Part shown: positions 775 through 14,180 of the stretch, piece after piece
How the letters are laid out: each line of letters opens with the position of its first letter
Numbering within the stretch: position 1 is the stretch's first letter
Assembly: GCF_002954265.1 (NCBI RefSeq)
Contig: NZ_PPSL01000002.1
Location: 744,001-808,000, forward strand
Length of the DNA: 64,000 bases
Direction of reading: 5' to 3'
DNA from: Flavipsychrobacter stenotrophus
Lineage (GTDB): Bacteria; Bacteroidota; Bacteroidia; Chitinophagales; Chitinophagaceae
Notes under the pieces: model-generated
What the model was told of the DNA's origin: nothing
Databases searched by the model: none
The model's input: only the letters and a program-made list of their open reading frames with translations
Translations under genes and position numbers: made by a program

Positions 775-1833
775 CTACCTTATCAGATTAACCAGTTTCT
801 TTTCGTCAACAATAATGATCTTACCGGTTTTGATGTCGATGAGGTTCTCGCTTTTGAAGTCGCTAAGTGTTCTTATGAGCGACTCTGTAGCGGTGCCGGC
901 AATGGTGGCCAGCTCTTCGCGGCTGATGTCGATCGTAAAGGGTTCTTTTTTATCTGTATGGTATTTCTTCTGCATGGCTATCAATGCACCAGCTACCTTT
1001 TTGCGAAGTGTATTGTAGGCGATGCCCAAAAGGTGATCTTCTTTGGCTATGACGTTTTTAGAGAGCAATGATATAAGCTTGCGCGAAATAGCAGGATTGG
1101 TGTTCAACAGGTCCTCAAAATCTTTACGTGGTATGAGCGTAAGTTCTGTTTCTTCTATTGCCTCTGCGGTTTCGTTATAAACGGTGTTTTCTATAAGCGA
1201 CGTGTACCCAAAAAAGTCGCCCTCGTTGTACAGGTCTATTACCAGGTCTTTACCGTCTTCGTGAGTCTTGTAGGTCTTAACCTTACCCTTCATGATGTAG
1301 AAAAGGTAATGGGGATTATTGCCCTGCTTGTAGATAACCTGGCGTTTCCGGTAGTTATTGCTGTTGCTTTCTTCGGTAAGGCTTTCAAGTGTTTTGTTAT
1401 TATCCAGGCTTGCACGCAATTCATTCAAACCCTGCATATCTGCCGACAGTGTCTTCCTGATGATGTCATTTTTCTTTAACCTGCTTTCTATAGCATTCAG
1501 CAATTCATTACCAGAAAATGGCTTGGTGATGTAGTCATCAGCACCCATCTCCATAGCAGCCCTGAAGTCGCTGCGTTCACTTTTTGAGGTAAGAAAGATA
1601 AAAGGGATATTTTGAGTAGCAGGGTCTTTGTGGAGCACATGCAATACACCATAGCCGTCTATTCCCGGCATCATGATATCGCAGATGATGAGATCGGGCA
1701 TGTTCTTTTGTGCCACATCTACCCCTTCCTTGCCATTAGCAGCTGTAAGTACTTTGTAGTCTGAAAGCGTAAGGATCTCTTCTACATTTTCCCTGATGTC
1801 TTCGTTATCTTCTATTATGAGAATTGTTTTCAT
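775..1833 (-). CDS. Response regulator fused to a CRP/FNR-type transcription factor
   Basis: A 352-residue cytoplasmic regulator. Residues 1-120 form a receiver domain with acidic EDNED near the N-terminus, phospho-acceptor Asp in ICDIMMPG, and KPF at the end. A linker follows, then a cyclic-nucleotide-binding fold (about 155-265) and a C-terminal winged helix of the Crp family. The recognition helix (GTATESLIRTLSDF) aligns with the FNR/CRP helix and keeps the Glu and Arg that read the TGA core. The only cysteine lies in the receiver domain, so it cannot bind an FNR-type Fe-S cluster; the signal should come by phosphorylation. The start is the ATG at 1833, 4 nt after the stop of the kinase gene; the longer frame would run into that gene. 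It is co-transcribed with the kinase and is the best candidate to bind the TGA-N6-TCA-type sites across the oxidase region. Confidence 0.88.
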   Translation of the reverse strand: MKTILIIEDNEDIRENVEEILTLSDYKVLTAANGKEGVDVAQKNMPDLIICDIMMPGIDGYGVLHVLHKDPATQNIPFIFLTSKSERSDFRAAMEMGADDYITKPFSGNELLNAIESRLKKNDIIRKTLSADMQGLNELRASLDNNKTLESLTEESNSNNYRKRQVIYKQGNNPHYLFYIMKGKVKTYKTHEDGKDLVIDLYNEGDFFGYTSLIENTVYNETAEAIEETELTLIPRKDFEDLLNTNPAISRKLISLLSKNVIAKEDHLLGIAYNTLRKKVAGALIAMQKKYHTDKKEPFTIDISREELATIAGTATESLIRTLSDFKSENLIDIKTGKIIIVDEKKLVNLIR

Positions 1834-1837
1834 TTTT

Positions 1838-3553
1838 CTATTTATTATTAGGAAAAGTAATGGTGAATTTGGTACCCTCTCCGAGTTTACTTTCGCATAC
1901 CACCTTGCCATTCATCAACTCGGCATATTTACTTACTATATGCAACCCCAGACCGGTACCCTGTATATTGGTAACATTAGACGACCTGAAGAAGCGCTTA
2001 GACAAGCTGTCTTTATCTTCGTCGGGAATGCCAATACCATGATCGGCAACTGACAGTACCATTCGGCCGGTATTTGTTTCTGTGACCAGGTCGATCACCG
2101 ATCCTTCTCCAGAGAATTTTATGGCGTTAGAAAGCAGGTTGATGACGATATGTTTTATCATTGACGGATCGAGCATCACTGCTGCCTCTGCGCCAATATG
2201 AGTGTAGTTTATCGTTTGCTCTTTCTTCAACAAATGATGTACCTCTTGTATTACTTCATCTATCTGCTCTTTTATATCGTACTGCTGATAGTTGGGGTGT
2301 ATATTCCCTTCTTCTATTTTACCAACAGACAGGAAGTCGTTCAGAATCTCGGTAAGTGAGGTCACTGAAGATACTATTCGTTGTATATGTTTTTCGCGTT
2401 GTGGCTGCTCTTCGCTTTTCATGTAGCGGGAAAGCAGATAGGCGGAAGATAAAACGGCGCTCAGCGGCGTTCTGAACTCATGCGATGCCATAGAAACAAA
2501 GCGCGACTTCAATTCATTCAGTTCCTTTTCTTTTTCGAAAGCCGCACGCAATTCTGTTTCTGCTTTCTTCTTCTCTGAAATGTCAATGGCTATACCCAGG
2601 AAGCCAGACACATTATTCTGAGCGTCTTTGAGCTGTGTAATATTCAACGAAACAAAAAAGACACTGCCATCTTTTCTTATGTAGTGCCACTCCTGATTGT
2701 TGTCCCGGCCAATGGTCATTGCCGTTATAAACACATCGAAACCCGGCGCAACAGCTTTGCCAGAGATAGCAGTAAATTCCTCCGCTTTCTGCGCCAGCTC
2801 TTCTTTAAGATGGAAGTCCGCAACATTTAGCTTACCAATAGCTTCTGAAGCAGAATAGCCCAGCCACTTTTCGGCAGCCGGATTGAAGAACTGCAGCACC
2901 CCTTCTTTGTCTGAGACGAATATAATGGCACCGGCATGGTTCCAAATGTTGTTTAAAAAGGTATTGACCCGCTCCAGCTCCGCATCCTTTCTTTCTGTTT
3001 CCTTTATCTGGTTGCCCAACTGCTCTACGGTAATGGCCAGCGACTGCGAGCCTTCTTTAACCTTTTCTTCGAGGTGGGTATTTAGCTGTATGATGGCCTG
3101 CTCGGTCTCCTTACGCTGGGTAATATCATTAATGAATGCGAGGGAATAGCTATCCTCACCGATCTTATAATGTCCCAGGCTAACTTCTACAGGAAATTCA
3201 GTACCGTTTTTTCTTAGTCCGGATAGTTCCATGCCCAGGCCCATAGGGCGACTGTGAGGATTGCCACTAAAATTTTCTCTATGCTTTACATGCTTTGTTT
3301 CGTAGCGTTTGGGAATAAGTACTTCTACTTTTTTGCCGATCAGCCCACCCTCTTCATACCCAAATTGTTGCTCTATATGCTTATTAGCCATCTGGATATC
3401 TCCGGAGGCATTAGTTATCAAAATACCAATACTGGCATAATTGAAAAGCGCATGGAAAGTATCATTGTCTAACGTAGTAAACGGCATGCTTAAATGTAAG
3501 GTAAAATCCTCTAAAGAAGAAGTAATCTTCTTGTCTGTATGCTTAGCGGCCAT
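1838..3553 (-). CDS. Two-PAS sensor histidine kinase with FixL-like PAS
   Basis: A 571-residue soluble kinase with no obvious membrane segment. PAS 1 spans about 28-150, a short coiled coil follows, then PAS 2 (about 190-330), HisKA with SHEFRTPL, and an ATPase domain with NLLSNAIKFS, GIGIP and GTGLGL boxes. In PAS 1, His88 and the GLGM segment (Met108) sit at the same spacing, 20 residues, as the haem ligand His200 and Arg220 of Bradyrhizobium FixL. This suggests, but does not prove, haem binding. The next gene, 4 nt away, is its likely partner regulator. A TGA-N6-TCA palindrome lies 37 bp upstream. The start could also be Met23 (position 3487), since the predicted transcript starts almost at 3553. 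Confidence 0.85.
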   Translation of the reverse strand: MAAKHTDKKITSSLEDFTLHLSMPFTTLDNDTFHALFNYASIGILITNASGDIQMANKHIEQQFGYEEGGLIGKKVEVLIPKRYETKHVKHRENFSGNPHSRPMGLGMELSGLRKNGTEFPVEVSLGHYKIGEDSYSLAFINDITQRKETEQAIIQLNTHLEEKVKEGSQSLAITVEQLGNQIKETERKDAELERVNTFLNNIWNHAGAIIFVSDKEGVLQFFNPAAEKWLGYSASEAIGKLNVADFHLKEELAQKAEEFTAISGKAVAPGFDVFITAMTIGRDNNQEWHYIRKDGSVFFVSLNITQLKDAQNNVSGFLGIAIDISEKKKAETELRAAFEKEKELNELKSRFVSMASHEFRTPLSAVLSSAYLLSRYMKSEEQPQREKHIQRIVSSVTSLTEILNDFLSVGKIEEGNIHPNYQQYDIKEQIDEVIQEVHHLLKKEQTINYTHIGAEAAVMLDPSMIKHIVINLLSNAIKFSGEGSVIDLVTETNTGRMVLSVADHGIGIPDEDKDSLSKRFFRSSNVTNIQGTGLGLHIVSKYAELMNGKVVCESKLGEGTKFTITFPNNK

Positions 3554-3589
3554 ATGGATAAATGTCGCAGGGATTTATGTGTTGAAAAA

Positions 3590-3601
3590 TGACCGTCGTC
3601 A
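3590..3601. promoter_or_regulatory. FNR/CRP-like palindrome upstream of the sensor kinase
   Basis: TGACCGTCGTCA, a TGAC-N4-GTCA palindrome, lies between the TauE/SafE gene and the kinase start. At the spacing seen for the other sites, the minus strand reads GACATTTA, a weak match to TAnnTTTG. Autoregulation of the kinase-regulator pair is inferred. Confidence 0.5.
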
Positions 3602-3620
3602 GGATTCGTGCTGCTTGAGA

Positions 3621-4328
3621 TCATTTTTTATGACAGCAGGAGTGAATCTCACCGTTTGTAACCTGTACCTTGGGACTGAGATAAGGAATATCGAGATTTA
3701 AGCCTCTAAGCAGGAAGAGACAACCGAAGCCAAATACAAATATTGGTGTGAGTGCCTTAAAAGCATTTGCCTTGCCAAAATTTAGCTTGCTCCTGAACAG
3801 AATAATACTTACCAGCATAGGCATGGTGCCCATACCGAAAAAGTAAGCAAATGAAACCGCCTCTAAAGGAGAGTGCAGCACCATAACAGCAGAAAGCATC
3901 ATGTACACAAGCCCGCAAGGCAACATACCATTGAGGAGTCCTGACATAGCTATAGACGGCATATCGGGCTGCCCGATAAATCGACTGAGCATACGCTTGG
4001 TAAATTCGGTCCACGGCAGTTTTATTTGTAGCTTAAGTCCGAGAGGAATGAAGGTAGCAATGCCCGCTGCCAGGAGTAAACTACCCAAACCCATTGAAAT
4101 GTACTGCTGTATGCGGGGATTAAAACTATCGCGAAAAGAATAAATGATGAATGCCATTAGCGCATAGACCGATATACGCGCCAGGTGATAGAGGCCAATT
4201 GCTGCAACTTTACGTGCACCTTTAAATTGGTGAAAAGGCAGGAACATCATTATAGGACCGCACATACCCGCGCAATGCAGGCTACCGGTAAAACCCATTA
4301 ATAACGCTACTGCTAAACCGCCACTCAT
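3621..4328 (-). CDS. Sulfite exporter TauE/SafE family membrane protein of the cbb3 locus
   Basis: A 235-residue integral membrane protein with about six hydrophobic helices. The N-terminal GFTGSLHCAGMCGP motif is typical of the UreH/TauE-like proteins that accompany cbb3 oxidase maturation genes. The protein ends in Cys-Cys-His-Lys-Lys. Its ATG overlaps the stop of ccoH by 4 nt (ATGA), so the two are translationally coupled. Position and motif suggest a role in copper or thiol handling during oxidase assembly. That role is inferred from context, since the substrate is not readable from sequence. Confidence 0.8.
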   Translation of the reverse strand: MSGGLAVALLMGFTGSLHCAGMCGPIMMFLPFHQFKGARKVAAIGLYHLARISVYALMAFIIYSFRDSFNPRIQQYISMGLGSLLLAAGIATFIPLGLKLQIKLPWTEFTKRMLSRFIGQPDMPSIAMSGLLNGMLPCGLVYMMLSAVMVLHSPLEAVSFAYFFGMGTMPMLVSIILFRSKLNFGKANAFKALTPIFVFGFGCLFLLRGLNLDIPYLSPKVQVTNGEIHSCCHKK

Positions 4329-4771
4329 GATGTATGCAGATTTAGTTCGGCTTCGTAATAAAAATTCTGACCATTGGCGCTATAACGCACCTTAACGGTG
4401 TACTTTGTTGGCATCAATCCGGTTCTTGGTATCACCAACTTATTGTTGCTGGTAGTAATGGTAAAATTCTTATCCCAATCCTGGTTAGCCGCAGAATAAA
4501 AATTGACATCACCCTTAAGATCGGCCTTACTGAACTCTGCCGGGAAGTCTATTATCACTTCACTTGCATTGGCATGAACAGATAGTTCACCTGCCAGGTT
4601 CGCCTGGTTTTTACTGGCATCCAGCACACCCTGGTATGCGATCTCGTCTTTGTAATAATCTTTAGATACAAGATCTATCTTCTGACGGCTGCTTGCAACC
4701 ACCAGTCCTACTATCAGGACTACAAATACACCGTACAGTCCGCCTATTTTCCATCCCCATCCAATTTTCAT
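4325..4771 (-). CDS. ccoH: cbb3 oxidase assembly protein CcoH/FixH
   Basis: A 148-residue protein with one N-terminal membrane helix (about 8-28) and a periplasmic beta-rich domain. FixH/CcoH proteins help assemble cbb3-type cytochrome oxidase. The YYKDEIAYQ segment after the helix is the family hallmark. It sits 12 nt after ccoG and overlaps the following gene by 4 nt, inside the cco operon. Confidence 0.85.
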   Translation of the reverse strand: MKIGWGWKIGGLYGVFVVLIVGLVVASSRQKIDLVSKDYYKDEIAYQGVLDASKNQANLAGELSVHANASEVIIDFPAEFSKADLKGDVNFYSAANQDWDKNFTITTSNNKLVIPRTGLMPTKYTVKVRYSANGQNFYYEAELNLHTS

Positions 4772-4783
4772 AAAAGTGTTGTT

Positions 4784-6193
4784 TTAATTACCGTCATTAA
4801 ATGGCCCCAAGAATGATGTTGTAATGGTGCTTATCTTCTTACCATGCTCATAGACACCTATCTTTAACTTAGTAGTTCTCTGCCTAACGGAGCTCTTGTC
4901 GAGATAGACAAACATGCTGCCGGCGACAATACCATCTTTAGGAATTTTAAGCCTTGTTTCACCAACCAGCTTTATATACCCCTTAAAGTTCTCGGGAACC
5001 AATGTTATCTCCTTTTCCTCGAACGTTTTATTGAGCATTTTGTAGTTATACAGATTGCTCAATTCATTATGAGGCTGCTCCTGATACAACTGACCAGGAG
5101 TCCGCAACAACGTAATACCAACATCGGTGCGGCTGGCTAACAACCATACCAACACACCCAGCAACAGGCACATAACGAAGCTATAAGCCTTCATCTTCAC
5201 CGTAAATACCCATGGCCTGTTTTTGGCAATGTTATTTTCAGAGGCCATTCTTATCAGGCCCTTCGGCAGGTTCACTGCCTCCATCATCCTGTCGCAGGCA
5301 TCAATACATGCGGTGCAGTTGACACATTCCAATTGAGTGCCATTACGTATATCTATGCCGGTAGGGCAAACCTTTACGCATTGCTCGCAATCTATGCAAT
5401 CGCCGGCCGTACGCTCTTCACTCTTGCGGAATTTAGCTCTTGTTTCGCCTCTCTTATAATCGTAAGCAACGATCATAGAATTACGATCGAGCAGTACACC
5501 CTGCATACGGCCATACGGACAGATAACAGTGCATATCTGTTCGCGCATCCACAGGTAAACAAAGAAGAAGACTGTTGTAAAAGTGACCAGAGAAACAAAT
5601 GTGCCTACATGCAGCGCAAATGACTCAGAGATCATCTTATACATCTCAGAAACGCCAATGATGTAAGAAAGGAATGTATTGGCTATGAGAAAACTAACCA
5701 TCCAGAAAGCCAACCATTTGCTCCCTTTCCTAAGGATCTTATTCGTATCCCACGGAGATCTTTCCAATATCTTCTGCTCAGCAGCAGTGCCTTCTATAAG
5801 ATATTCAATACGCCGGAAGACCATCTCCATAAAGATGGTCTGCGGACAGGCCCAACCACAGAACACCCTACCAAAGACAACTGTGAACAATGCTATAAAA
5901 ACAATGAACACGATCATACCCAAGGCGAAGATGAAGAAATCCTGCGGCCAGAATATTTGCCCGAAGAGGATGAATTTCCTCTCCAGGATGTTTATTAGAA
6001 ATAACGGATGTCCTTTATACTTGAGAAACGGCAATCCGAAAAACAAAAGCAGGTAAAAAGCTGTAAATGCTGTACGCAGCGTATAAAACCTACCTTTGGG
6101 TTGTTGTGCAAATATCCACACTCTTTTCCCCTTCTTATCGATCGTTGCCACCTTATCACGAAAAGACGACTTAATATCTATTTGCTCACTCAT
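4784..6193 (-). CDS. ccoG: cbb3 oxidase maturation ferredoxin-like protein CcoG
   Basis: A 469-residue membrane protein, the usual length for CcoG/FixG, thought to reduce copper for CcoI-dependent insertion into the oxidase. Visible features are CGWACPQ and CTVICPYGRMQG near membrane helices, two 4Fe-4S motifs (CIDCEQCVKVCP and CVNCTACIDACD), and the FixG Ig-like C-terminal domain. About five transmembrane helices are apparent. It is 10 nt downstream of ccoP. Confidence 0.95.
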   Translation of the reverse strand: MSEQIDIKSSFRDKVATIDKKGKRVWIFAQQPKGRFYTLRTAFTAFYLLLFFGLPFLKYKGHPLFLINILERKFILFGQIFWPQDFFIFALGMIVFIVFIALFTVVFGRVFCGWACPQTIFMEMVFRRIEYLIEGTAAEQKILERSPWDTNKILRKGSKWLAFWMVSFLIANTFLSYIIGVSEMYKMISESFALHVGTFVSLVTFTTVFFFVYLWMREQICTVICPYGRMQGVLLDRNSMIVAYDYKRGETRAKFRKSEERTAGDCIDCEQCVKVCPTGIDIRNGTQLECVNCTACIDACDRMMEAVNLPKGLIRMASENNIAKNRPWVFTVKMKAYSFVMCLLLGVLVWLLASRTDVGITLLRTPGQLYQEQPHNELSNLYNYKMLNKTFEEKEITLVPENFKGYIKLVGETRLKIPKDGIVAGSMFVYLDKSSVRQRTTKLKIGVYEHGKKISTITTSFLGPFNDGN

Positions 6194-6203
6194 GGTACTA
6201 TTC

Positions 6204-7367
6204 TTATTTACCCGCTACCGGCTGAACTGCCGCACTATCCTTAGTCTCTTTTGGTGTTGTTTCTATGTATAACTCACCCTGCGGCGCCTTTGGCGTAAGC
6301 GGATGCGTTCCTTTAAGTGTCTTAATAAAGCTTGCAACTTCCTGCATCTGTTTAGGAGACAGGTCATCTTTCCAGCTCTTCATACCCTTATCCTGCCAGC
6401 CGTACTTAACAGACTTGAAGATGTCTTTTAGCCCGCCGCCATGTAGCCAGTATTCATCTGTAAGGTTAGGCCCTACCGTACCGCCACCGTCTGCCAGGTG
6501 ACAAGGCGCACAATTCTTTACGAATGTTTCCCTACCCGCTGCAATAGCCGCAGGATCACTGAGCAATGTTACTGTAGCTTCATCAACGTTGTTGGCTGAT
6601 TTAGCAAGGTATGCAGCCTTGTCTGCCTCACCCTGAACCATTTCAGTAGTATATTCTTCCAATTGGCTTTGCCCGTCGTGAGATACATGGAAACGATAGA
6701 TGTATACGATACCCACCAGGATAGTGATATAGAAACCATAGATCCACCATGGAGGCAATGCATTATCCAACTCCATAATGCCGTCGTAGTTATGATCGAG
6801 CAAAATATCCTTTTCCTTCTCGATAGATGCAGCACTGTTGAACTTGTCCCAGAACCAACTCTTCTTAGCAATAGCGCGGGCTTTCGCCTGCAGCTCCGGA
6901 ACATCCCTGATAACCCTAAGCAGGATATTAATGATGATGGTCAATGCGAACACTATAACTAACTCCAAAGTGATCAAACCAACCAGAGCGTAGAAATCGT
7001 TTACAGGAATACCACTGATACTGGTCACCTTGGGCGCTACAGCGGCTTCTGCGGCGGGTTCGATAGCAGCAAAGCTAGTAGCTGAAGTGAAGATGAAAAG
7101 CAACAGCAACATTGTCTTAGCAGCAATAGATGAACCCTGCTTTTCCTTCTTATTCTTCTCCCTAACTACAAATGTGAGCTGGCGCAGGGTGTTGGACAGC
7201 ATTCCTATTACAAACAACAGGATCAATACTAACCCAACAAGACACAATAACGTCATGTTGTACCCTATTCCTTTATCGTCTGACGCGGTAGTTGCTGCTA
7301 AACTCAACTGAGGAAGTAACATTGCGCCTATTGCAGAAAAAACGACCGCTTTTTTATGTAAATGCAT
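6204..7367 (-). CDS. ccoP: cbb3 oxidase cytochrome c subunit CcoP, mono-haem
   Basis: A 387-residue subunit that passes electrons to the oxidase core. There is one haem c site (CAPCH, about residue 285) with a later Met ligand candidate; proteobacterial CcoP has two CxxCH motifs. The N-terminal half is unusual. A signal-like stretch plus a membrane helix (1-60) is followed by a second signal-like stretch plus helix (about 85-150), then a third helix near 210 with the LPPWW motif typical of CcoP. The first 110 residues could be a fused extra subunit or an internal duplication. The gene lies 20 nt after the ccoQ-like gene. Confidence 0.9.
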   Translation of the reverse strand: MHLHKKAVVFSAIGAMLLPQLSLAATTASDDKGIGYNMTLLCLVGLVLILLFVIGMLSNTLRQLTFVVREKNKKEKQGSSIAAKTMLLLLFIFTSATSFAAIEPAAEAAVAPKVTSISGIPVNDFYALVGLITLELVIVFALTIIINILLRVIRDVPELQAKARAIAKKSWFWDKFNSAASIEKEKDILLDHNYDGIMELDNALPPWWIYGFYITILVGIVYIYRFHVSHDGQSQLEEYTTEMVQGEADKAAYLAKSANNVDEATVTLLSDPAAIAAGRETFVKNCAPCHLADGGGTVGPNLTDEYWLHGGGLKDIFKSVKYGWQDKGMKSWKDDLSPKQMQEVASFIKTLKGTHPLTPKAPQGELYIETTPKETKDSAAVQPVAGK

Positions 7368-7387
7368 ATGCCTGTTGTCTTTGAAAA

Positions 7388-7561
7388 TTATTGATTGTTC
7401 TTTTCGGGAAATGGTATGTTCTTCAACTCTTCTATGTATTTCTTATCGGCTCTCGCAGACCATGTTGCCATGGCTGCGAAAAACACGAAGAATATAGTGA
7501 GCGAGGTAAGCGGGTATATGCCCACGCCAGTAATATGCTCCAGATAGTGTATGAATTTCAT
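7388..7561 (-). CDS. ccoQ: CcoQ-like small subunit of cbb3 oxidase
   Basis: A 57-residue protein starting MKFIHYLEHITGVGIYP, with one membrane helix (about 15-33) and a charged tail. Size, topology and position between ccoNO and ccoP match CcoQ. It begins 3 nt after the ccoNO stop, so it is coupled. Sequence similarity to proteobacterial CcoQ is too weak to see by eye; the call rests on context. Confidence 0.75.
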   Translation of the reverse strand: MKFIHYLEHITGVGIYPLTSLTIFFVFFAAMATWSARADKKYIEELKNIPFPEKNNQ

Positions 7562-7564
7562 TGT

Positions 7565-9718
7565 TTAATTATTAGGGGTGACTTTTTGTTCGCGCTTGAT
7601 ATCAGTACCAACTCTCTGGAGGTATGCGATCAATGCAATGATCTCCTTGTCGCTCTTGATGGTTATTTTATCCTTAGCCAGGTTGGCTGCTATACCGTTG
7701 GCCTGCTTCATGAGCTCATCGTTGGCAATTCTGTCATAACCAGCCGCATAAGGAACACCCAGCGTTATCATTGCGCGGATCTTTGCTCCAGTTATAGCCG
7801 TATCCAGATTATTTTTGAACAGCCAAGGATAGTTAGGCATGATAGTGCCCGGAGAAATACTGCCCGGTTCGTACATGTGGTTGAAGTGCCAGCTATCAGG
7901 ATATTTACCACCTATTCTAGCCAGATCGGGACCGGTACGTTTACTACCCCACTGGAAAGGATGATCATAAACAAACTCACCTGCTTTTGAATATTCACCG
8001 TAACGAACAACCTCACTTCTGAAAGGGCGTATCATTTGGCTATGACATAAGTAACAACCTTCACGTACATATATGTCTCTACCTTGCAGTTCAAGCGGAG
8101 TATATGGTTTTACACTAGCAATTGTTGGTATGTTTGATTTTACCATAAAGGTCGGTATCATCTCTATCATACCACCTATAGCCACTACTATAAGACTGAT
8201 TACAAGCAACTGTATAGGACGACGTTCTATCCATCTGTGCCAGTGCTGTGTGCTGTGAGCAACATATACCTTACTAAGTGGTGCTGCTTCGGCGGGTTCT
8301 TCGTTTAGTACATTACCGGCCTTCACGGTCTTATACAAGTTGTAACACATGATAAGCGCACCAAAAAGGAATAACACACCACCTACACCACGCATTGCAT
8401 AGAAAGGCTGCATTTGCTTAACAGTATCCAGAAATTGATATTTAAGTGTGCCCTCCGGAGTAAACTCCTTCCATGCCAGGCTCTGCATAAAGCCAGCCCA
8501 ATACATAGGAACCACATAGAATACTATACCGAGTGTACCTATCCAGAAGTGCCTGTTGGCCAGCTTTACGGAATATAACTTAGTACGGAATATTTTCGGG
8601 ATCAGGTAGTAAAGGATACCAAATGTGAGGAAGCCGTTCCAACCCAGCGCACCTACGTGAACGTGTGCAATGGTCCAGTCTGTAAAGTGACTGATAGCGT
8701 TAACGCTCTTCAGACTCAGCATTGGTCCTTCGAAAGTAGCCATACCATATGCGGTAACAGCAACTACCATAAATTTAAGAACAGGATCTTCTCTTACTTT
8801 ATCCCATGCACCACGGAGGGTAAACAAACCGTTGAGCATACCACCCCATGATGGCGCCAAAAGCATGATGGAGAAAACGGTACCTAATGACTGTGCCCAA
8901 TCGGGCAATGCTGTATATAACAAGTGGTGAGGACCTGCCCAGATATACAGGAATATAAGTGCCCAGAAGTGAATAATAGACAACCTATAAGAATAAACCG
9001 GCCTGTTTGCTGCCTTAGGCAGGAAGTAATACATCAAACCCAGATATGGAGTAGTGAGGAAGAACGCAACCGCATTGTGGCCATACCACCATTGTACCAG
9101 GGCGTCCTGTACACCGGCATACCAGGAGTAAGACTTCATCATTGAAAATGGAAGCTCTATTGAGTTAACTATGTGGAGCATAGCAACTGTAACGAACGTG
9201 GCTATATAGAACCAGATAGCAACATACAGGTGGCGTTCGCGCCTTTTTAATATAGTACCAAACATGTTCCAACCGAATGCTACCCATACAAGTGCTATAA
9301 GAATATCTATCGGCCATTCCAGTTCGGCATACTCTTTACCGGATGTATAACCGGCAAGAAGCGTTATGGCCGCCAGCACTATAATAGACTGCCAACCCCA
9401 GAAGTGAAATTTGCTCAGCTTATCGCTAAACATCCTGGCTTTACAGAGGCGTTGCAAAGAATAATAAACACCCATGAAAATACCATTACCCACAAACGCA
9501 AAGATGATAGCGTTGGTGTGGACCGGCCTTACCCTACCAAAGGTTGTTGCAGCCATATTCATGTTAAGCACAGGAAATACTAACTGGAATGCCGCAAGTA
9601 TACCCGCGAGCATACCAACCACTCCCCAAATAATGGTGGCATAGGCAAACCATTTTACAGTTTTGTTGTCATAGAAAAACTTATCGTTTTGTAAAGACAC
9701 ATTTGCATCTAACTCCAT
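7565..9718 (-). CDS. ccoNO: Fused cbb3 cytochrome c oxidase subunits I and II (CcoN-CcoO)
   Basis: A 717-residue fusion that forms the oxygen-reducing core. The first ~470 residues are CcoN, with twelve or so membrane helices, the haem/copper histidines in [11 protein letters not shown] and [11 protein letters not shown], and GPHHLLY. The last ~240 residues are CcoO, with one membrane anchor and one haem c site ([15 protein letters not shown]). Separate ccoN and ccoO genes are the proteobacterial pattern; the fusion is common in Bacteroidota. ccoS lies 23 nt upstream and the ccoQ-like gene 3 nt downstream. Confidence 0.96.
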
Positions 9719-9741
9719 ACTCCTGGTTTTTGTGTTATTAT

Positions 9742-9900
9742 TTATTTATTTTTTGTCTCGAATTCTTCGTCAAATAGCATTCTCATAGCTGCGCCTTCTT
9801 TGTCGCTGTACTGATCATCATAAATACTCCAGATGAAGGCTCCCAGAAAGGTTCCGGCTACTAACAAACTAATAAGGACCAGAACAATTAATGCGCTCAT
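9742..9900 (-). CDS. ccoS: cbb3 oxidase assembly protein CcoS
   Basis: A 52-residue protein starting [20 protein letters not shown], with one membrane helix, then [15 protein letters not shown]. This matches the CcoS pattern of a short N-terminal helix followed by W(S/A)xxxxQYDD-type residues. CcoS is needed for cofactor insertion into cbb3 oxidase. It is the first gene of the cco operon. Too short for routine gene callers, but its position and motif are convincing. Confidence 0.88.
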
Positions 9901-9920: not shown

Positions 9921-9963
9921 CAAAACTATCTGGTAATGGAGGGGTGTTTTATGACCATGCTCA
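9921..9963 (-). promoter_or_regulatory. Predicted FNR/CRP-type activated promoter of ccoS-ccoNOQP
   Basis: On the minus strand, a TGA-N6-TCA-type site (plus-strand TGACCATGCTCA, 9952-9963) lies upstream of TAGTTTTG (9921-9928), a perfect TAnnTTTG element. The site centre is 36.5 nt from the last G of the element, which places it near -41 relative to the expected start: the class II activator position. The predicted leader is about 17 nt. Confidence 0.7.
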
Positions 9964-10050
9964 AATGGAAAGATGATTATAATCATGTAGTGCGAAACCT
10001 ATTGACTAAGTGAGTAAGACAAGTGGATGTAAGTACTATAAAACAAGTGA

Positions 10051-10263
10051 TCATCCATGTTTTGCCATTATCAATTCCTCCATCTGGAAAGGGCAATAGT
10101 GCGCCTGCTCCCTGCCTTCATTGTTTTTAGCAAACCATATGCAGTCTATCATATTGGGGCTGTATTCATTTACCAGCACATCGTAGTGCTTGCCCCGCAC
10201 CGTCATTACCGGACCACCCGATATAAGCCGAACCTTATCGCCCGGATTAAGCTGAAGTTCCAT
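10051..10263 (-). CDS. DUF2158 (YodC-like) small protein
   Basis: A 70-residue protein starting MELQLNPGDKVRLISGGP. The GDxVxLxSGGPxMTV segment, the C-x-W pair and the C-terminal hydrophobic/acidic residues match the DUF2158/YodC family, whose role is unknown. The longer frame begins at 10305, but the predicted promoter places the transcript start near 10274, so the ATG at 10263 is chosen. It lies upstream of ccoS on the same strand, with a separate site-bearing promoter each. Confidence 0.75.
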   Translation of the reverse strand: MELQLNPGDKVRLISGGPVMTVRGKHYDVLVNEYSPNMIDCIWFAKNNEGREQAHYCPFQMEELIMAKHG

Positions 10264-10277
10264 AAAACTCTTTTTTG

Positions 10278-10320
10278 TAAAAGTAATCGGCAGAGTAAAG
10301 GACAAAATTGATCATGGTCA
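10278..10320 (-). promoter_or_regulatory. Predicted FNR/CRP-type promoter of the DUF2158 gene
   Basis: TGATCATGGTCA (10309-10320) is centred 36.5 nt from the end of a minus-strand TACTTTTA element (10278-10285, one mismatch to TAnnTTTG). This is the same spacing as the ccoS promoter. Confidence 0.6.
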
Positions 10321-10389
10321 GCAGCCAAAGTGTTCCTTATCATTGAGACAATGCAATGGCAGGCCAGATATACAGATCATTACCCGGCA

Positions 10390-10432
10390 TGACGGGTGTC
10401 ATGTATAGCAGGGCAACATAGGTCTACATTTG
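10390..10432 (+). promoter_or_regulatory. Predicted FNR/CRP-type promoter of the 127-residue gene
   Basis: A perfect palindrome, ATGAC-GGGT-GTCAT (core 10390-10401), is centred 36.5 nt upstream of the last base of TACATTTG (10425-10432), a perfect -7 element. The expected start is near 10436, giving a 13-nt leader to the ATG at 10449. Confidence 0.7.
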
Positions 10433-10448
10433 TACAAATAATAATCAA

Positions 10449-10832
10449 ATGACTAAAATAAACATCAGCCATGTAAGTAACATGCACAACCAGTGGTTAA
10501 GGAATCTCAATTTCTACAAAACAGAAATAACCATCCAGAAAGGAATACTGACCGAGATAGCCGGAAAAAACACAACAAATGAGATTGCCAAAGACGTAGA
10601 GCACTTCGAAAATCAGTTCAGAATTCAATCAGACAACATCGACGCGATCGCACATGACATTCATTTGAATATTGGCGCAATAAGCAGGGCAGCCCAAAGC
10701 TCTTCTGCCGGATATATAGATGGACAGTTGTTAACCGACCATACAGCACTTGGAAACCGTGCTGAAGATGAAGAAAAAGTAATGATCGAACTTATTCATT
10801 CTTTCCGCAAGTTTGCCGAAAAGTGGATGTAA
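10449..10832 (+). CDS. Uncharacterised helical protein, probable member of the low-oxygen regulon
   Basis: A 127-residue cytoplasmic protein not recognised from any family. It has no signal peptide or membrane segment. It is rich in Asn, Glu, His and Ile and is predicted by eye to be almost entirely helical, with a short Ser/Gly-rich turn near residue 87. It has no cysteines. It is monocistronic, with its own site-bearing promoter and a terminator at 10870-10895, and stands divergent from the DUF2158 gene in the middle of the cbb3 region. The protein may be a small stress or hibernation-type factor, but that is speculation. Confidence 0.8.
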   Translation: MTKINISHVSNMHNQWLRNLNFYKTEITIQKGILTEIAGKNTTNEIAKDVEHFENQFRIQSDNIDAIAHDIHLNIGAISRAAQSSSAGYIDGQLLTDHTALGNRAEDEEKVMIELIHSFRKFAEKWM

Positions 10833-10839
10833 TAAATTT

Positions 10840-10851
10840 TGATCAGGATCA
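10840..10851. promoter_or_regulatory. Orphan FNR-like palindrome after the 127-residue gene
   Basis: TGATCAGGATCA sits inside an 18-nt perfect inverted repeat (10837-10854, TTTTGATC-AG-GATCAAAA). No -7 element is found at the shared spacing on either strand, and no gene starts nearby. Confidence 0.4.
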
Positions 10852-10869
10852 AAATAAACCAATAATTCT

Positions 10870-10895
10870 AATGGCCCCGGAGAGACGGGGCCATT
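10870..10895. terminator. Hairpin terminator between convergent genes
   Basis: AATGGCCCC / GGGGCCATT stem (9 bp) with an 8-nt loop, followed by T-rich sequence. It separates the 127-residue gene from the end of ccoI. Confidence 0.75.
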
Positions 10896-10925
10896 GTAAT
10901 TTTATCAATAAAAACAAGTAAAGTT

Positions 10926-13379
10926 CTACTTCAATGATGCAACTGTCAAACCCTTGCGCCAGGCTATGAGGTTACTCAATCCGCTTGATATGATAACAAT
11001 ACTAATGGTACTGCAAGGCATAAGAATAGCCGCCAGCATTGGCTTCATCAGCCCCTGCATAGCAAAGTACAGGCCGGCGATGTTATAAAGAATAGATACA
11101 ACAAAGCTGATCTTCACAAACGTACCCGACAATCGGGCGAGATCTAACAATGAAGCGAACAAATTCATTTTACCTGCATCAAATATTGCATCGCAGGCTG
11201 GAGTAAAGTTGTTGATATCATCTGCCAGGGTAATACCTACATTGCTCTGCTGTAGCGCACCCGCATCATTCAGTCCGTCACCTATCATCATTACCTTCCT
11301 ACTCTTGTTTTGTAATGATTGTATATAGTTAAGCTTATCAATAGGCTTTTGCTTAAACAGAAGACTGCATTTCTTGCCAAACAACTCCTCCATTTTTGCC
11401 TTTTGCTTATCGTTATCTCCCGACAACAAAGAGAGCGAATACCTTTCTCTCAACTTCCAGATAAGTGCAGGTACTGCATTTCTAAAGACAGGGTTCAGAT
11501 GAACTGACGTTAACTGTCCGTCTATCTTTATGTAGACTGTTGCATTATCTGTTGCAACATTTGTGTCGACTCCTGTAAAATCACCAGAGCCCACAATTAC
11601 ATTATAACTGCCGTATTTTGCCGCCAGTCCTTTCCCGGGTGTTTCCGACCAGTTACTCAAAGGAACAGTGTTTCTATCGCCTAACCATTCTGCTATTGCT
11701 TTACTATTAGGATGATTACTTTGCCTTACCACACTATATACAATGTCTTTCTGCTGTTCACTGAGCTGATGACCGGAAACAATTACCTGGCTGTTGCTGC
11801 TATTGGTAATTGTACCCGTTTTATCAAAAACAATATCGTTGGTGTCGGCAATTTGCTCTATTACTGTGGCATCGCGCAGATAAAGACCGTTAAGCCCAAA
11901 TATTCTGAGAATGTTACTGTTGGTAAATGTAGAAGACAGTAACAGCGCACATGGGCAAGCCACTATAAGCATAGCCGATACCGCATTAATGATCTTAGAC
12001 GGATCGTGATAGTACCAATAAGCCGCAGTAATAATGGCCAGGCTGAACAATATAACTGTAAAGTACTTGCTCAGAATATGGATGACACTTATTTTATCGT
12101 TGCTGTCTGCCTTATCCTTCTTAAATGCATAATGGTTCCAGAGCGAGGTTAGATAACTGGCCGCTATTGGTTTCACAACCTGTATGATCAGCTCTTCGCC
12201 CGTTTGCCGCCCCCCGGCATACACTGTTTCGCCCGCTTTTACCCTTACTGCGCTTGCCTCACCGGATACAAAGCTGTAATCGATCAGCGCATTGTCATTC
12301 AGCACTATTGAATCTGCAGGTATGATCTCATCATGATGCAGCATTACAATGTCTTTCTCTTTCAGGTCTTGCAACTGGGTACTCACAATACCCGCAGGTG
12401 TACTTACATTAACAGCAATAGGGAAATAAGATTTGTAGTCCCTTGTAAACGACAAGGACTTGTACGTTCTTTCCTGCACTATTCTACCAGCCAGCATAAA
12501 GAACACAATCCCACTCATGCTGTCAAGATAACCCGCTCCTGTATTGGTAACTATCTCATAAACACTACGTGAGAAAGTGATGATGATAGCGAGTACTATA
12601 GGCGCATCAATATTAAGTATCTTCTGTTTAAGACCACTCCATGCGGTGGAATAGAATTCGGTGGCTGCATATAGGAATACCGGAAGCGACAACAAGAGAT
12701 TCAAATACCTGAACAGATATGAGTACTGGGCATCTAAACCCGCTTTACCCGACAAGTACTCGGGAAAACTCATCATCATAATATTGCCAAAGCAGAAACC
12801 TGCCACACCCAATTTTATAAGGCGTTGGCGGTTGAATGATTTTGCCTCTTTTACATTGGTATCATCAAAACTTATGTAAGGTTCATACCCTATAGTCGTC
12901 AGCAACTCTACGACCTTGCGGAAGCTGATCTTTTTCCTATAGAAATGGATACTTACTTCTTTAGCTGTAAAGCTGATGCGGCTTTCAATAATACCGCTAT
13001 CTACCCTGTTAAGGTGCTCCAGCAGCCACATACAAGAGCTACAATGAATAGAAGGTATATAAAGTGTTACAATAGTGAGGTCGCCGTTAGTAAACTGGAA
13101 TAGCTTGTTGCTAATTGCTTCGTTATCTAAAAAGGAATACTTATCATTCCTTACCGGCTTTATCTGAGCAACACCGGGATGTGATTGCAGTTTGTAGTAA
13201 TCGCAAAGGCCATTGTTATCAATGATCTCATAAACCAGCTTACATCCGTCGCAGCAAAAGTACTTGTTGTCTACAGCTATGCTATTAGTGAGGCAGTTTA
13301 AACCACAATGATAGCACACCGGCATTGCCTTGCTGCGTACATTTTCTCTGACTATATTAATTTCATCTATTACCTGCAT
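10926..13379 (-). CDS. ccoI: Copper-translocating P1B-type ATPase CcoI
   Basis: An 817-residue membrane ATPase that supplies copper for cbb3 oxidase. It has an N-terminal cysteine-rich metal site (CYHCGLNC and CCDGCK), an HMA domain with the CcoI-specific CSSCMW motif, eight or so membrane helices, CPCALLLSS in the metal channel, the phosphorylation motif DKTGTIT, an HP locus (SNHPNSKAI) and the hinge GDGLNDAGALQQS. Its start overlaps the upstream 187-residue gene by 17 nt, implying coupling; Met19 (13325) is an alternative start. It is transcribed apart from the cco operon but from a promoter with the same site geometry. Confidence 0.95.
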   Translation of the reverse strand: MQVIDEINIVRENVRSKAMPVCYHCGLNCLTNSIAVDNKYFCCDGCKLVYEIIDNNGLCDYYKLQSHPGVAQIKPVRNDKYSFLDNEAISNKLFQFTNGDLTIVTLYIPSIHCSSCMWLLEHLNRVDSGIIESRISFTAKEVSIHFYRKKISFRKVVELLTTIGYEPYISFDDTNVKEAKSFNRQRLIKLGVAGFCFGNIMMMSFPEYLSGKAGLDAQYSYLFRYLNLLLSLPVFLYAATEFYSTAWSGLKQKILNIDAPIVLAIIITFSRSVYEIVTNTGAGYLDSMSGIVFFMLAGRIVQERTYKSLSFTRDYKSYFPIAVNVSTPAGIVSTQLQDLKEKDIVMLHHDEIIPADSIVLNDNALIDYSFVSGEASAVRVKAGETVYAGGRQTGEELIIQVVKPIAASYLTSLWNHYAFKKDKADSNDKISVIHILSKYFTVILFSLAIITAAYWYYHDPSKIINAVSAMLIVACPCALLLSSTFTNSNILRIFGLNGLYLRDATVIEQIADTNDIVFDKTGTITNSSNSQVIVSGHQLSEQQKDIVYSVVRQSNHPNSKAIAEWLGDRNTVPLSNWSETPGKGLAAKYGSYNVIVGSGDFTGVDTNVATDNATVYIKIDGQLTSVHLNPVFRNAVPALIWKLRERYSLSLLSGDNDKQKAKMEELFGKKCSLLFKQKPIDKLNYIQSLQNKSRKVMMIGDGLNDAGALQQSNVGITLADDINNFTPACDAIFDAGKMNLFASLLDLARLSGTFVKISFVVSILYNIAGLYFAMQGLMKPMLAAILMPCSTISIVIISSGLSNLIAWRKGLTVASLK

Positions 13380-13917
13380 TTATGTTCTTTTGAGCTTCAG
13401 CGATCTTGGGTATGAGGTAGTTATTCTCCAGGAAAAAAAGTTCGGTAAGGTTTGTTTCCAGCATCGTCATGTTGGAGCGGAGCACCCTGTAAGCGTCAGG
13501 GTACATTGTTTCTGAGTATAAAGGCAATGTTGACAGTTGTAACCTCGATAGCACCTTGGTCATTTCCTCATTGGTAGCATTCAGATCAAGGATGTGCATG
13601 TTGTGATTGATCTTACATGAACCGGAACAATTGGTACAATCATGGCTGTCCCTCACTTTCTCAGTAAGCGTATGCACGTAAGGCATATAAATTTGCTTCC
13701 TATTGCTCACGTGTTTTTCAATTTCAGCGATCACGTTCAGACATAAAACAGCATATTGTAGGGGAGATTCAGAAATTTCGATGCTCTTTATCTTTTCACA
13801 TTGCAATTTTGAAGCAGCACACGATATTTCAATAGCGTTGTAATACTCTGATTGCAGTTTTTCCGCAAAGGGCTTCAATGCTATGTTTTTATACTCCTCA
13901 TATATCTTTACGGCCAT
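13363..13917 (-). CDS. Unrecognised helical protein with a Cys cluster, coupled to ccoI
   Basis: About 184 residues, cytoplasmic and mostly helical. A central DSHDCTNCSGSCKINHNMH segment holds a C-x2-C-x3-C cluster flanked by histidines, suited to metal or haem binding. The C-terminal FFLENNYLIPKI recalls helices of hemerythrin-like and Ric-type proteins, but a full set of iron ligands is not visible. The ATG at 13917 is preferred over 13926 because the predicted transcript starts near 13931 and sibling genes have 10-17-nt leaders. It overlaps ccoI by 17 nt. A role in copper or redox handling is inferred from position only. Confidence 0.75.
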   Translation of the reverse strand: MAVKIYEEYKNIALKPFAEKLQSEYYNAIEISCAASKLQCEKIKSIEISESPLQYAVLCLNVIAEIEKHVSNRKQIYMPYVHTLTEKVRDSHDCTNCSGSCKINHNMHILDLNATNEEMTKVLSRLQLSTLPLYSETMYPDAYRVLRSNMTMLETNLTELFFLENNYLIPKIAEAQKNINAGNR

Positions 13918-13934
13918 GCTTATCATATTTTTAT

Positions 13935-13977
13935 CGAAGGTATAGTGCTATATGCTGGTGAAAAATGATTTACATCA
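13935..13977 (-). promoter_or_regulatory. Predicted FNR/CRP-type promoter of the 187-residue gene and ccoI
   Basis: TGATTTACATCA (13966-13977, TGAT-N4-ATCA) is centred 36.5 nt from the end of the minus-strand element TACCTTCG (13935-13942), one mismatch from TAnnTTTG. The geometry is the same as at ccoS. Confidence 0.65.
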
Positions 13978-14115
13978 GCTATTGACTTGACATACTTTCA
14001 GTAAAAGTTACCATTAACAACTCGTGCACCCCATTGTTGCCACATACAAAATCTACAGAAAATCTATATCGGTATTATGTTACATGGCAAAGGCAGGGCG
14101 ATTGGTCTTCTTAGG

Positions 14116-14180
14116 CAAATGTAGATGTGCCTTCCCCGTAACAGGGTAATGGTAAGCAGAGAGAGAAATGATCTTGGTCA
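14116..14180 (-). promoter_or_regulatory. Possible second, distal promoter with FNR-like site
   Basis: TGATCTTGGTCA (14169-14180) lies 58.5 nt (centre to last G) from a perfect minus-strand TACATTTG element (14116-14123). That is about two helical turns farther than in the other promoters, a class I-like distance. It would give a ~190-nt leader before the 187-residue gene. The rest of 13978-14214 shows no gene. Confidence 0.35.

Follow-up and report, generated by a model that had tools for sequence, protein, structure and literature searches.

This analysis indicated that four predicted promoters in a 64,000-nt window (C11:744001-808000 of a draft genome of 5.43 Mb) share a geometry that is exact to the base, a TGAY-N4-RTCA palindrome lying at one fixed distance from a TAnnTTTG-like -7 element, and that the same geometry recurs in many related genomes. 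These promoters precede ccoS, which opens a cluster encoding a cbb3 oxidase (cco), a gene for a DUF2158 protein, a gene for a 127-residue protein, and the ccoI unit. The original prediction, which had described these four, was confirmed as real and, as judged from sequence, the candidate promoter set is larger than it had described. Known kinds underlie the finding, namely class II promoters and an oxygen relay of the FixL type. The promoters may best be read as cases of class II activation by a protein of the CRP/FNR type, and this activation probably proceeds through a receiver-CRP fusion, phosphorylated by a FixL-like kinase at low oxygen, with tandem sites at ccoS.

A rescan of the window found all four pairs at the positions previously claimed. 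In each, 23 nt separate the site from the -7 element (gap 23), which corresponds exactly to the 36.5 nt given earlier between the site centre and the last base of that element.

9952..9963, minus strand: proximal site of ccoS, TGAGCATGGTCA, one mismatch to TGAYNNNNRTCA, centre at about -41.5
9921..9928, minus strand: -7 element of ccoS, TAGTTTTG
10309..10320, minus strand: proximal site of the DUF2158 gene, TGACCATGATCA, perfect
10278..10285, minus strand: -7 element of the DUF2158 gene, TACTTTTA, one mismatch
10390..10401, plus strand: proximal site of the 127-residue gene, TGACGGGTGTCA, perfect
10425..10432, plus strand: -7 element of the 127-residue gene, TACATTTG
13966..13977, minus strand: proximal site of the ccoI unit, TGATGTAAATCA, perfect
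13935..13942, minus strand: -7 element of the ccoI unit, TACCTTCG, one mismatch

All four sites had been described as TGAY-N4-RTCA. This holds for the DUF2158 gene, the 127-residue gene and the ccoI unit, three perfect forms of the TGA-N6-TCA palindrome (TGAYNNNNRTCA), but not for ccoS, whose site (TGAGCATGGTCA, one mismatch) has TGAG and keeps the TGA/TCA core. The leaders, worked out by hand to predicted, unmapped starts with TAnnTTTG placed at -12 to -5, come to 16 nt for ccoS, 10 nt for the DUF2158 gene, 12 nt for the 127-residue gene and 4 or 13 nt for the 187-residue gene of the ccoI unit, depending on the start codon; this is close to the 10-17 nt proposed.

The identical spacing was clearly not confined to these four cases. 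At gaps 8-38 and with one mismatch allowed in total, the window contained ten pairs, and the four at gap 23 were exactly those reported; the palindrome itself (TGAYNNNNRTCA) was seen 12 times where 4.07 were expected, a number reached in 0 of 100 shuffles. A genome-wide scan, which the original prediction had proposed, gave 30 pairs of exact motifs at gaps 8-38, ten of them at gap 23 and two each at gaps 22 and 24, and a reversed-pattern control gave 10 pairs in all. The ten exact gap-23 matches all lay outside open reading frames of more than 100 residues, 4-62 nt ahead of the start of one. Leaving out the window's own match, 9 of 29 pairs stood at gap 23 (p=2.1e-7), and among the matches listed for 8 of the 19 relatives searched (the eighth, G122, with 13 of its 17) 50 of 150 pairs did so, with 12 at gap 24 and 8 at gap 22 (p=2e-36); these p-values overstate the case, the genomes being related and the draws not independent, which has to be counted against our reading. 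At gap 23 only, the 117 family genomes held 450 matches (24 reversed). Gap-23 pairs were present in 46 of the 49 genomes of the same class of the phylum (277 matches, 12 reversed) and in 38 of 149 genomes outside it (58 matches, 7 reversed, summed by hand). Around 80 receiver-CRP loci of other genomes, 42 of 54 pairs were at gap 23, and a reversed -7 element gave 18 pairs with none at this gap. At 30 family loci, 28 pairs with no more than one mismatch lay within the 800 bp above ccoNO, and 23 of these had gap 23.

Chance or base composition, which might be invoked in view of A+T-rich intergenic DNA where TAnnTTTG is common, of only four sites in the window, and of the roughly one half of this genome's one-mismatch gap-23 matches explicable in this way, is a next to negligible explanation and was rejected, since one sharp gap recurs across many genera with low controls, adjacent gaps lack a like enrichment, and both gap 23 and a 22-bp offset reappear elsewhere. 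The original view that the spacing is unlikely to be accidental was thus borne out. It should be noted that tolerance of one mismatch raised the gap-23 matches of this genome to 30 (the ten exact ones included) with 14 reversed, so a good part of the 20 one-mismatch matches may be chance. A minor second peak was seen one helical turn further up, at gap 34 (2 of 30 pairs in this genome, 10 of 150 among the matches listed for relatives); gap-34 pairs at C12:73005-73058 and C12:141475-141528 precede a gene resembling a ferredoxin oxidoreductase, as read from its sequence, and others.

Core promoter and proposed targets

A centre at -41.5 is the classic position of a class II activator. In Flavobacterium psychrophilum, mapped starts place TAnnTTTG at -12 to -5 (PMC9723704), so that a gap of 23 nt puts the site centre at -41.5. 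This placement is exact relative to TAnnTTTG, with the start position borrowed from another genus; the position near -41 first proposed is supported by independent sequence, in the recurrence of gap 23 across genomes. A -33 element hidden within the 23-nt gap was considered and rejected: none was seen, TTTG occurring at most 4 times at any position among 154 matches copied from the listings of this genome and its family, some listed matches being left out.

In this genome, the ten exact gap-23 sites precede genes for a homogentisate-dioxygenase-domain protein, the 127-residue protein, a YiaAB protein, a radical-SAM protein that appears from its sequence to be HemN, a receiver protein, a VIT1 transporter, a lipid-desaturase-domain protein and three proteins without a Pfam match. 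A gap-24 site precedes a gene for a di-haem cytochrome c peroxidase, and one-mismatch sites are found before, among others, genes for a universal stress protein and a CxxCxxCC protein. Respiratory genes had been expected among the targets, and sites were indeed seen before ccoS, the ccoI unit, the cytochrome c peroxidase gene (gap 24) and the HemN-like gene, which speaks for presence and not for enrichment. The homogentisate-dioxygenase-domain gene has a perfect 22-bp tandem together with gap 23 (C11:180946-180988, L001); such a gene would be an odd member of a low-oxygen regulon, since the enzyme requires oxygen.

The same intergenic regions in relatives bore out the prediction for ccoS and the DUF2158 gene and in part for the 127-residue gene. 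Promoter classes of the latter, counted by hand over 28 usable promoters including that of the window, comprised 13 with a gap-23 pair of no more than one mismatch, four in which that pair has two, and one at gap 24. The ccoI unit gave no such support in the one relative compared.

Other sites of the window stand apart from these promoters. The site at 14169-14180 was rejected as a fifth class II promoter, the nearest TACATTTG (14117-14124) lying 57.5 nt from its centre, and no open reading frame of at least 60 residues starts on the minus strand before 13926. The stretch 14117-14180, a perfect minus-strand site TGACCAAGATCA centred at about -62 relative to TACATTTG, is possibly a small RNA or a second promoter of the ccoI unit. 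Another perfect site, TGATCAGGATCA at 10840-10851, lies between the converging ends of the 127-residue and ccoI genes, just ahead of a terminator-like hairpin, and no promoter role was seen for it. Two more perfect sites fall within the ccoP reading frame (6932-6943 and 7016-7027).

A second site 22 bp upstream

The ccoS promoter has a tandem of sites and a proximal site whose imperfection is conserved, both of which the original prediction had missed. Second sites, from perfect to possible and degenerate, lie at three of the promoters:

9974..9985, minus strand: distal site of ccoS, TGATTATAATCA, perfect, exactly 22 bp above the proximal site, centre at about -63.5
10331..10342, minus strand: distal site of the DUF2158 gene, TGATAAGGAACA, one mismatch, 22 bp above the proximal site
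10368..10379, plus strand: possible degenerate distal site of the 127-residue gene, ATATACAGATCA, two mismatches, one half-site left

At this offset the ccoI unit (13988-13999) shows three mismatches. The tandem at ccoS was strongly conserved. A perfect TGAYNNNNRTCA stood at offset 22 in all 26 promoters that could be scored among 30 family loci (L120, L132, L136 and L143 being left out), in a scoring whose choice of proximal site favoured candidates with a good distal site at offsets 13-44, not specifically 22. When promoters were chosen without regard to the distal site, inspection by eye of 25 promoters found the distal site at offset 22 in all; they include L120 and L143, whose proximal sites are poorer. 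In a more distant set of named relatives, a pair with at most one mismatch preceded ccoS in 19 of 21 cases and a perfect site stood at offset 22 in 18 of 21. The imperfection of the proximal site, a G at its fourth place (TGAG), was found in 22 of the 26 scored family promoters; as a universal feature of ccoS it was rejected, since only 5 of the 21 named relatives have it. TGAG-type matches at gap 23 numbered 63 across the 117 genomes, as against 6 reversed, and 25 of them were directly before ccoNO when compared by hand. The DUF2158 promoter shows the opposite pattern, with the better site proximal and a one-mismatch site distal, in the window and in all three relatives found, each of which has a pair with at most one mismatch and a one-mismatch site at offset 22.

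The same offset recurs in the wider set. Around the 80 receiver-CRP loci, 47 of 55 perfect site pairs spaced 13-60 bp apart were at offset 22, and 28 of 42 gap-23 sites had a second site (at most one mismatch) 22 bp above, with none at 22 bp below. Among 27 promoters of this genome, picked from 34 by leaving out matches within genes or far from a start, six second sites were seen, five of them at offset 22. From a mechanistic point of view, one good and one conservedly poor site two turns apart suggest cooperative binding, which would provide a sharp switch.

Candidate activators and their probable signal

The proposed sensor and activator are encoded directly behind the oxidase, in the minus-strand order cco cluster, histidine kinase, receiver-CRP fusion:

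3621..9900, minus strand: cco cluster (cbb3 oxidase), from Pfam and NCBIfam profile matches
9742-9900, minus strand: ccoS
7565-9718, minus strand: ccoNO fusion
6204-7367, minus strand: ccoP
4784-6193, minus strand: ccoG
4325-4771, minus strand: ccoH
3621-4328, minus strand: DsbD_2-type membrane protein
1838..3553, minus strand: PAS-PAS histidine kinase, 571 residues, proposed sensor
775..1833, minus strand: receiver-CRP fusion, 352 residues (REC, cNMP-binding fold and Crp helix-turn-helix, by Pfam), proposed activator
10051..10263, minus strand: DUF2158 protein, 70 residues, proposed target
10449..10832, plus strand: 127-residue protein, proposed target
10926..13926, minus strand: ccoI unit, a 184-187-residue protein and a heavy-metal P-type ATPase, proposed targets
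3590..3601, minus strand: site TGACGACGGTCA ahead of the kinase and fusion genes, with a poor -7 element at gap 23
3559-3566, minus strand: -7 element before the kinase, GACATTTA, two mismatches
3612-3623, minus strand: distal site before the kinase, one mismatch, 22 bp above the site at 3590

The ATPase is taken as ccoI by context, and its 184-187-residue neighbour matches the iron-sulphur repair RIC model weakly, far under the cut-off. The 127-residue protein, for which a Pfam and NCBIfam profile search gave no match, has relatives in 71 of the 117 family genomes, near the receiver-CRP gene in several by comparison of the lists by hand. It is predicted with high confidence as a three-helix bundle (predicted local distance difference test, pLDDT, 93) with His52 and His69 well conserved, and its predicted fold found 0 matches in the PDB at E <= 0.001. 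The closest matches of the receiver-CRP protein are in Chitinophagaceae (88% in one Chitinophagaceae genome, 84% in a Taibaiella sp.); judging by them, the source organism would be a relative of Taibaiella within this family.

In this genome the fusion, one of four proteins matching HTH_Crp_2, is the likely activator. Across the family it is present in 85 of 117 genomes. Of the 64 genomes having both it and ccoNO, 33 have the two within 15 kb of each other, a linkage count based on 84 fusion genomes, without the partial one, G078. Site density was 1.01 per Mb with the fusion and 0.40 without it. Among the matches listed in fusion-bearing relatives, 11 of 139 sites lay within 15 kb of the fusion gene, where at most 1.3 were expected (a count that excludes the present genome and those lacking the fusion). 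The receiver appears functional: the response-regulator pocket residues D9, D52 and K104 are invariant in 79 of 79 proteins, all of which have T or S at 82, and the domain scores best against the PhoB model. Cyclic AMP (cAMP), held in CRP by Arg82 and Ser83, was rejected as a ligand, these two contacts being N and E in the fusion and mostly K/N/Q/H and mostly E/D in its relatives. C51 is the only cysteine of the protein, and those for an iron-sulphur (Fe-S) cluster are absent. As to the signal, the best solved-structure match of the first PAS domain of the kinase is the haem PAS of FixL (E=2.6e-14), with DosP lower in the list, and a histidine aligned with that of FixL, which is its proximal haem ligand, is kept in 63 of 74 relatives; this domain may bind haem. 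The kinase/fusion pair is possibly autoregulated through the site at 3590..3601; a tandem with gap 23 precedes the kinase in L211, L212 and L214 and is degenerate in the window.

Several observations weigh against this interpretation. No pair at gaps 22-24 precedes 10 of the 28 homologues of the 127-residue gene, no pair with at most one mismatch lies above ccoNO at 8 of the 30 family loci, and the single relative start checked for the ccoI unit has none within two mismatches. As regards autoregulation, the -7 element of the kinase operon has two mismatches, and of the 33 kinase starts examined in relatives only 4 have a pair. Methionine replaces the distal arginine of FixL in the first PAS domain, so oxygen binding by the kinase is uncertain. 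The lack of a -33 element supports class II activation weakly and is not diagnostic, because in Flavobacterium johnsoniae none was identified in general either (PMC7366714). Finally, a second CRP-type protein also correlates with the sites. This is a short CRP protein of 201 residues (C11:972079-972681), present in 85 of 117 family genomes; a model of site number gave coefficients (with quasi-standard errors) of 0.73 (0.27) for the fusion and 0.65 (0.23) for the short protein, and in G005 its gene is directly behind the 127-residue gene and the gap-23 promoter of that gene. One regulator for all four units had been proposed: a CRP/FNR-family activator is indeed the natural reading, but its singleness is unproven, there being at least two candidate proteins of the CRP type.

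It is doubtful, if conceivable, that both proteins read the same sites, integrating two signals and competing or pairing on the tandem. Site density was 1.12 per Mb in genomes encoding both, 0.55 and 0.50 in those encoding only the fusion or only the short protein, respectively, and 0.31 in those with neither; this additive pattern may, however, reflect phylogeny or genome type, and direct evidence for two binders is absent. We consider nitric oxide or redox state, in place of oxygen, unlikely as the signal of the kinase, in which case the set would be a nitrosative or redox regulon. The weakly RIC-like protein and the peroxidase among the targets would fit this, as would the methionine at the distal position, but the genes of a high-affinity oxidase and of HemN belong to the classic low-oxygen set. 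In F. psychrophilum the cbb3 oxidase and haem synthesis rise under oxygen limitation (PMC9723704). Quite unlikely is a third alternative, in which the short protein, having no receiver, reads the sites in response to a ligand of its own and the fusion controls something else. Its independent correlation with site number, its place in line behind the 127-residue gene in G005 and a helix that keeps the E..xxR of the CRP family speak for it. By contrast, G026, G033 and G064, which lack it at the cut-off, still have the perfect tandem partner at ccoS, its recognition helix is unlike that common to the fusion and cysteine-bearing FNR proteins (see below), and in this genome it is encoded about 230 kb from the cco cluster. 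We infer that the fusion rather than the short protein reads the sites, although the latter may share others of the set.

A possible exchange of the oxygen sensor and comparison with known systems

Relatives with ccoNO and no fusion (12 at a criterion of E <= 1e-40) offered a further view of the activator. All seven that were checked carry an FNR-like protein with cysteines in the pattern CxxC-x8-C, and in five its gene lies no more than about 5 kb from ccoNO. Among ten relatives examined, eight had this cysteine type, seven without the fusion and one with it (G026), and none was found in the fusion-bearing G033 and G064. In the present genome an Fe-S FNR was sought and rejected, as none of the four HTH_Crp_2 proteins shows, by eye, the N-terminal cysteine pattern. 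The recognition helices of the two types, GTATE[ST]xIRLLSE in the cysteine proteins and GTATESLIRTLSD in the fusion, are nearly identical. G017, G087 and G096, which have the cysteine FNR and a scored ccoS, keep the same ccoS tandem, so the sensor differs while sites and geometry stay. In a tree of 13 of the 30 family fusion proteins (every second locus, less two removed by a motif filter) together with 8 cysteine proteins, with L181 left out, the two types formed separate clades in one group with Escherichia coli FNR.

A tentative proposal, to which we give somewhat less than an even chance, is that in Chitinophagaceae and their kin a one-step phosphorelay from a FixL-like kinase to a receiver-CRP protein took the place of an Fe-S FNR, with recognition helix, sites and geometry kept, the strong/weak 22-bp tandem giving a cooperative response of the oxidase. 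G026, which carries both regulators, counts against such a displacement, as does the tree, which leaves the order of the two clades open and their sisterhood unsettled. At C15:1020476-1020697 (L031), a CRP-type frame has an in-frame stop between its halves; an unbroken relative exists in G033 (L199), by eye.

With regard to mechanism, the promoters would depend on an activator and be served by the primary sigma factor of Bacteroidota. A CRP/FNR-family dimer on TGAY-N4-RTCA at -41.5 would sit beside the polymerase, where a -33 element would otherwise help, and at ccoS and several other targets a second dimer would bind two helical turns (22 bp) further up, at -63.5. At low oxygen, the FixL-like PAS kinase (1838-3553) would phosphorylate the fusion and throw the switch for the ccoS to ccoH cluster, the ccoI unit, the genes of the HemN-like protein, cytochrome c peroxidase, DUF2158 protein and 127-residue protein, and others, with the kinase/fusion pair as a further possible target.

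Bacteroidota have an unusual sigma factor, and how their transcription is activated has, in our judgement, been mapped poorly; these promoters suggest that activators keep the class II distance of -41.5 even where the core promoter is very different. They also name a compact candidate oxygen sensor and a testable case of regulator displacement with the sites left in place, and the rule of gap 23 plus offset 22 makes a candidate regulon listable in related genomes. In the open-licence literature, no report was found of cco genes being controlled by a receiver-CRP fusion in Bacteroidota, nor of this promoter geometry.

The class II CRP and FNR promoters of E. coli have a dimer at -41.5, as is predicted here, and are similar in their TGA..TCA core and a weak or missing upstream core element; they differ from those described here, which have a Bacteroidota sigma factor, TAnnTTTG as -7 element and many second sites at 22 bp. 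The FNR site TTGAT-N4-ATCAA has an A after the palindrome, whereas here the next base is mostly T (56% of the 154 matches). E. coli FNR itself shares the helix-turn-helix superfamily and the kind of half-site with the fusion, which lacks the cluster cysteines. OmpR/PhoB regulators are like the fusion in their receiver, the PhoB model being the best match, and in the two-turn tandem, the spacing at which PhoB binds, and unlike it in that here a CRP helix-turn-helix reads palindromes. FixJ is a receiver joined to a LuxR-type helix-turn-helix, and in the fusion the receiver is joined instead to cNMP_binding and HTH_Crp_2. The FixL-FixJ-FixK/FnrN systems of Alphaproteobacteria (PMC4999443) resemble the present one in a PAS kinase of the FixL type and an Fe-S-less CRP regulator over cco/fix genes, the role proposed here for the fusion; here, receiver and CRP reader would be one protein, with one step instead of a two-step cascade. 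The same source proposes that FixLJ-FixK replaced an Fe-S FnrN in Caulobacteriales, FixK binding the existing FnrN sites (PMC4999443), and the exchange considered here would be its counterpart in another phylum, with the recognition helix kept almost letter for letter.

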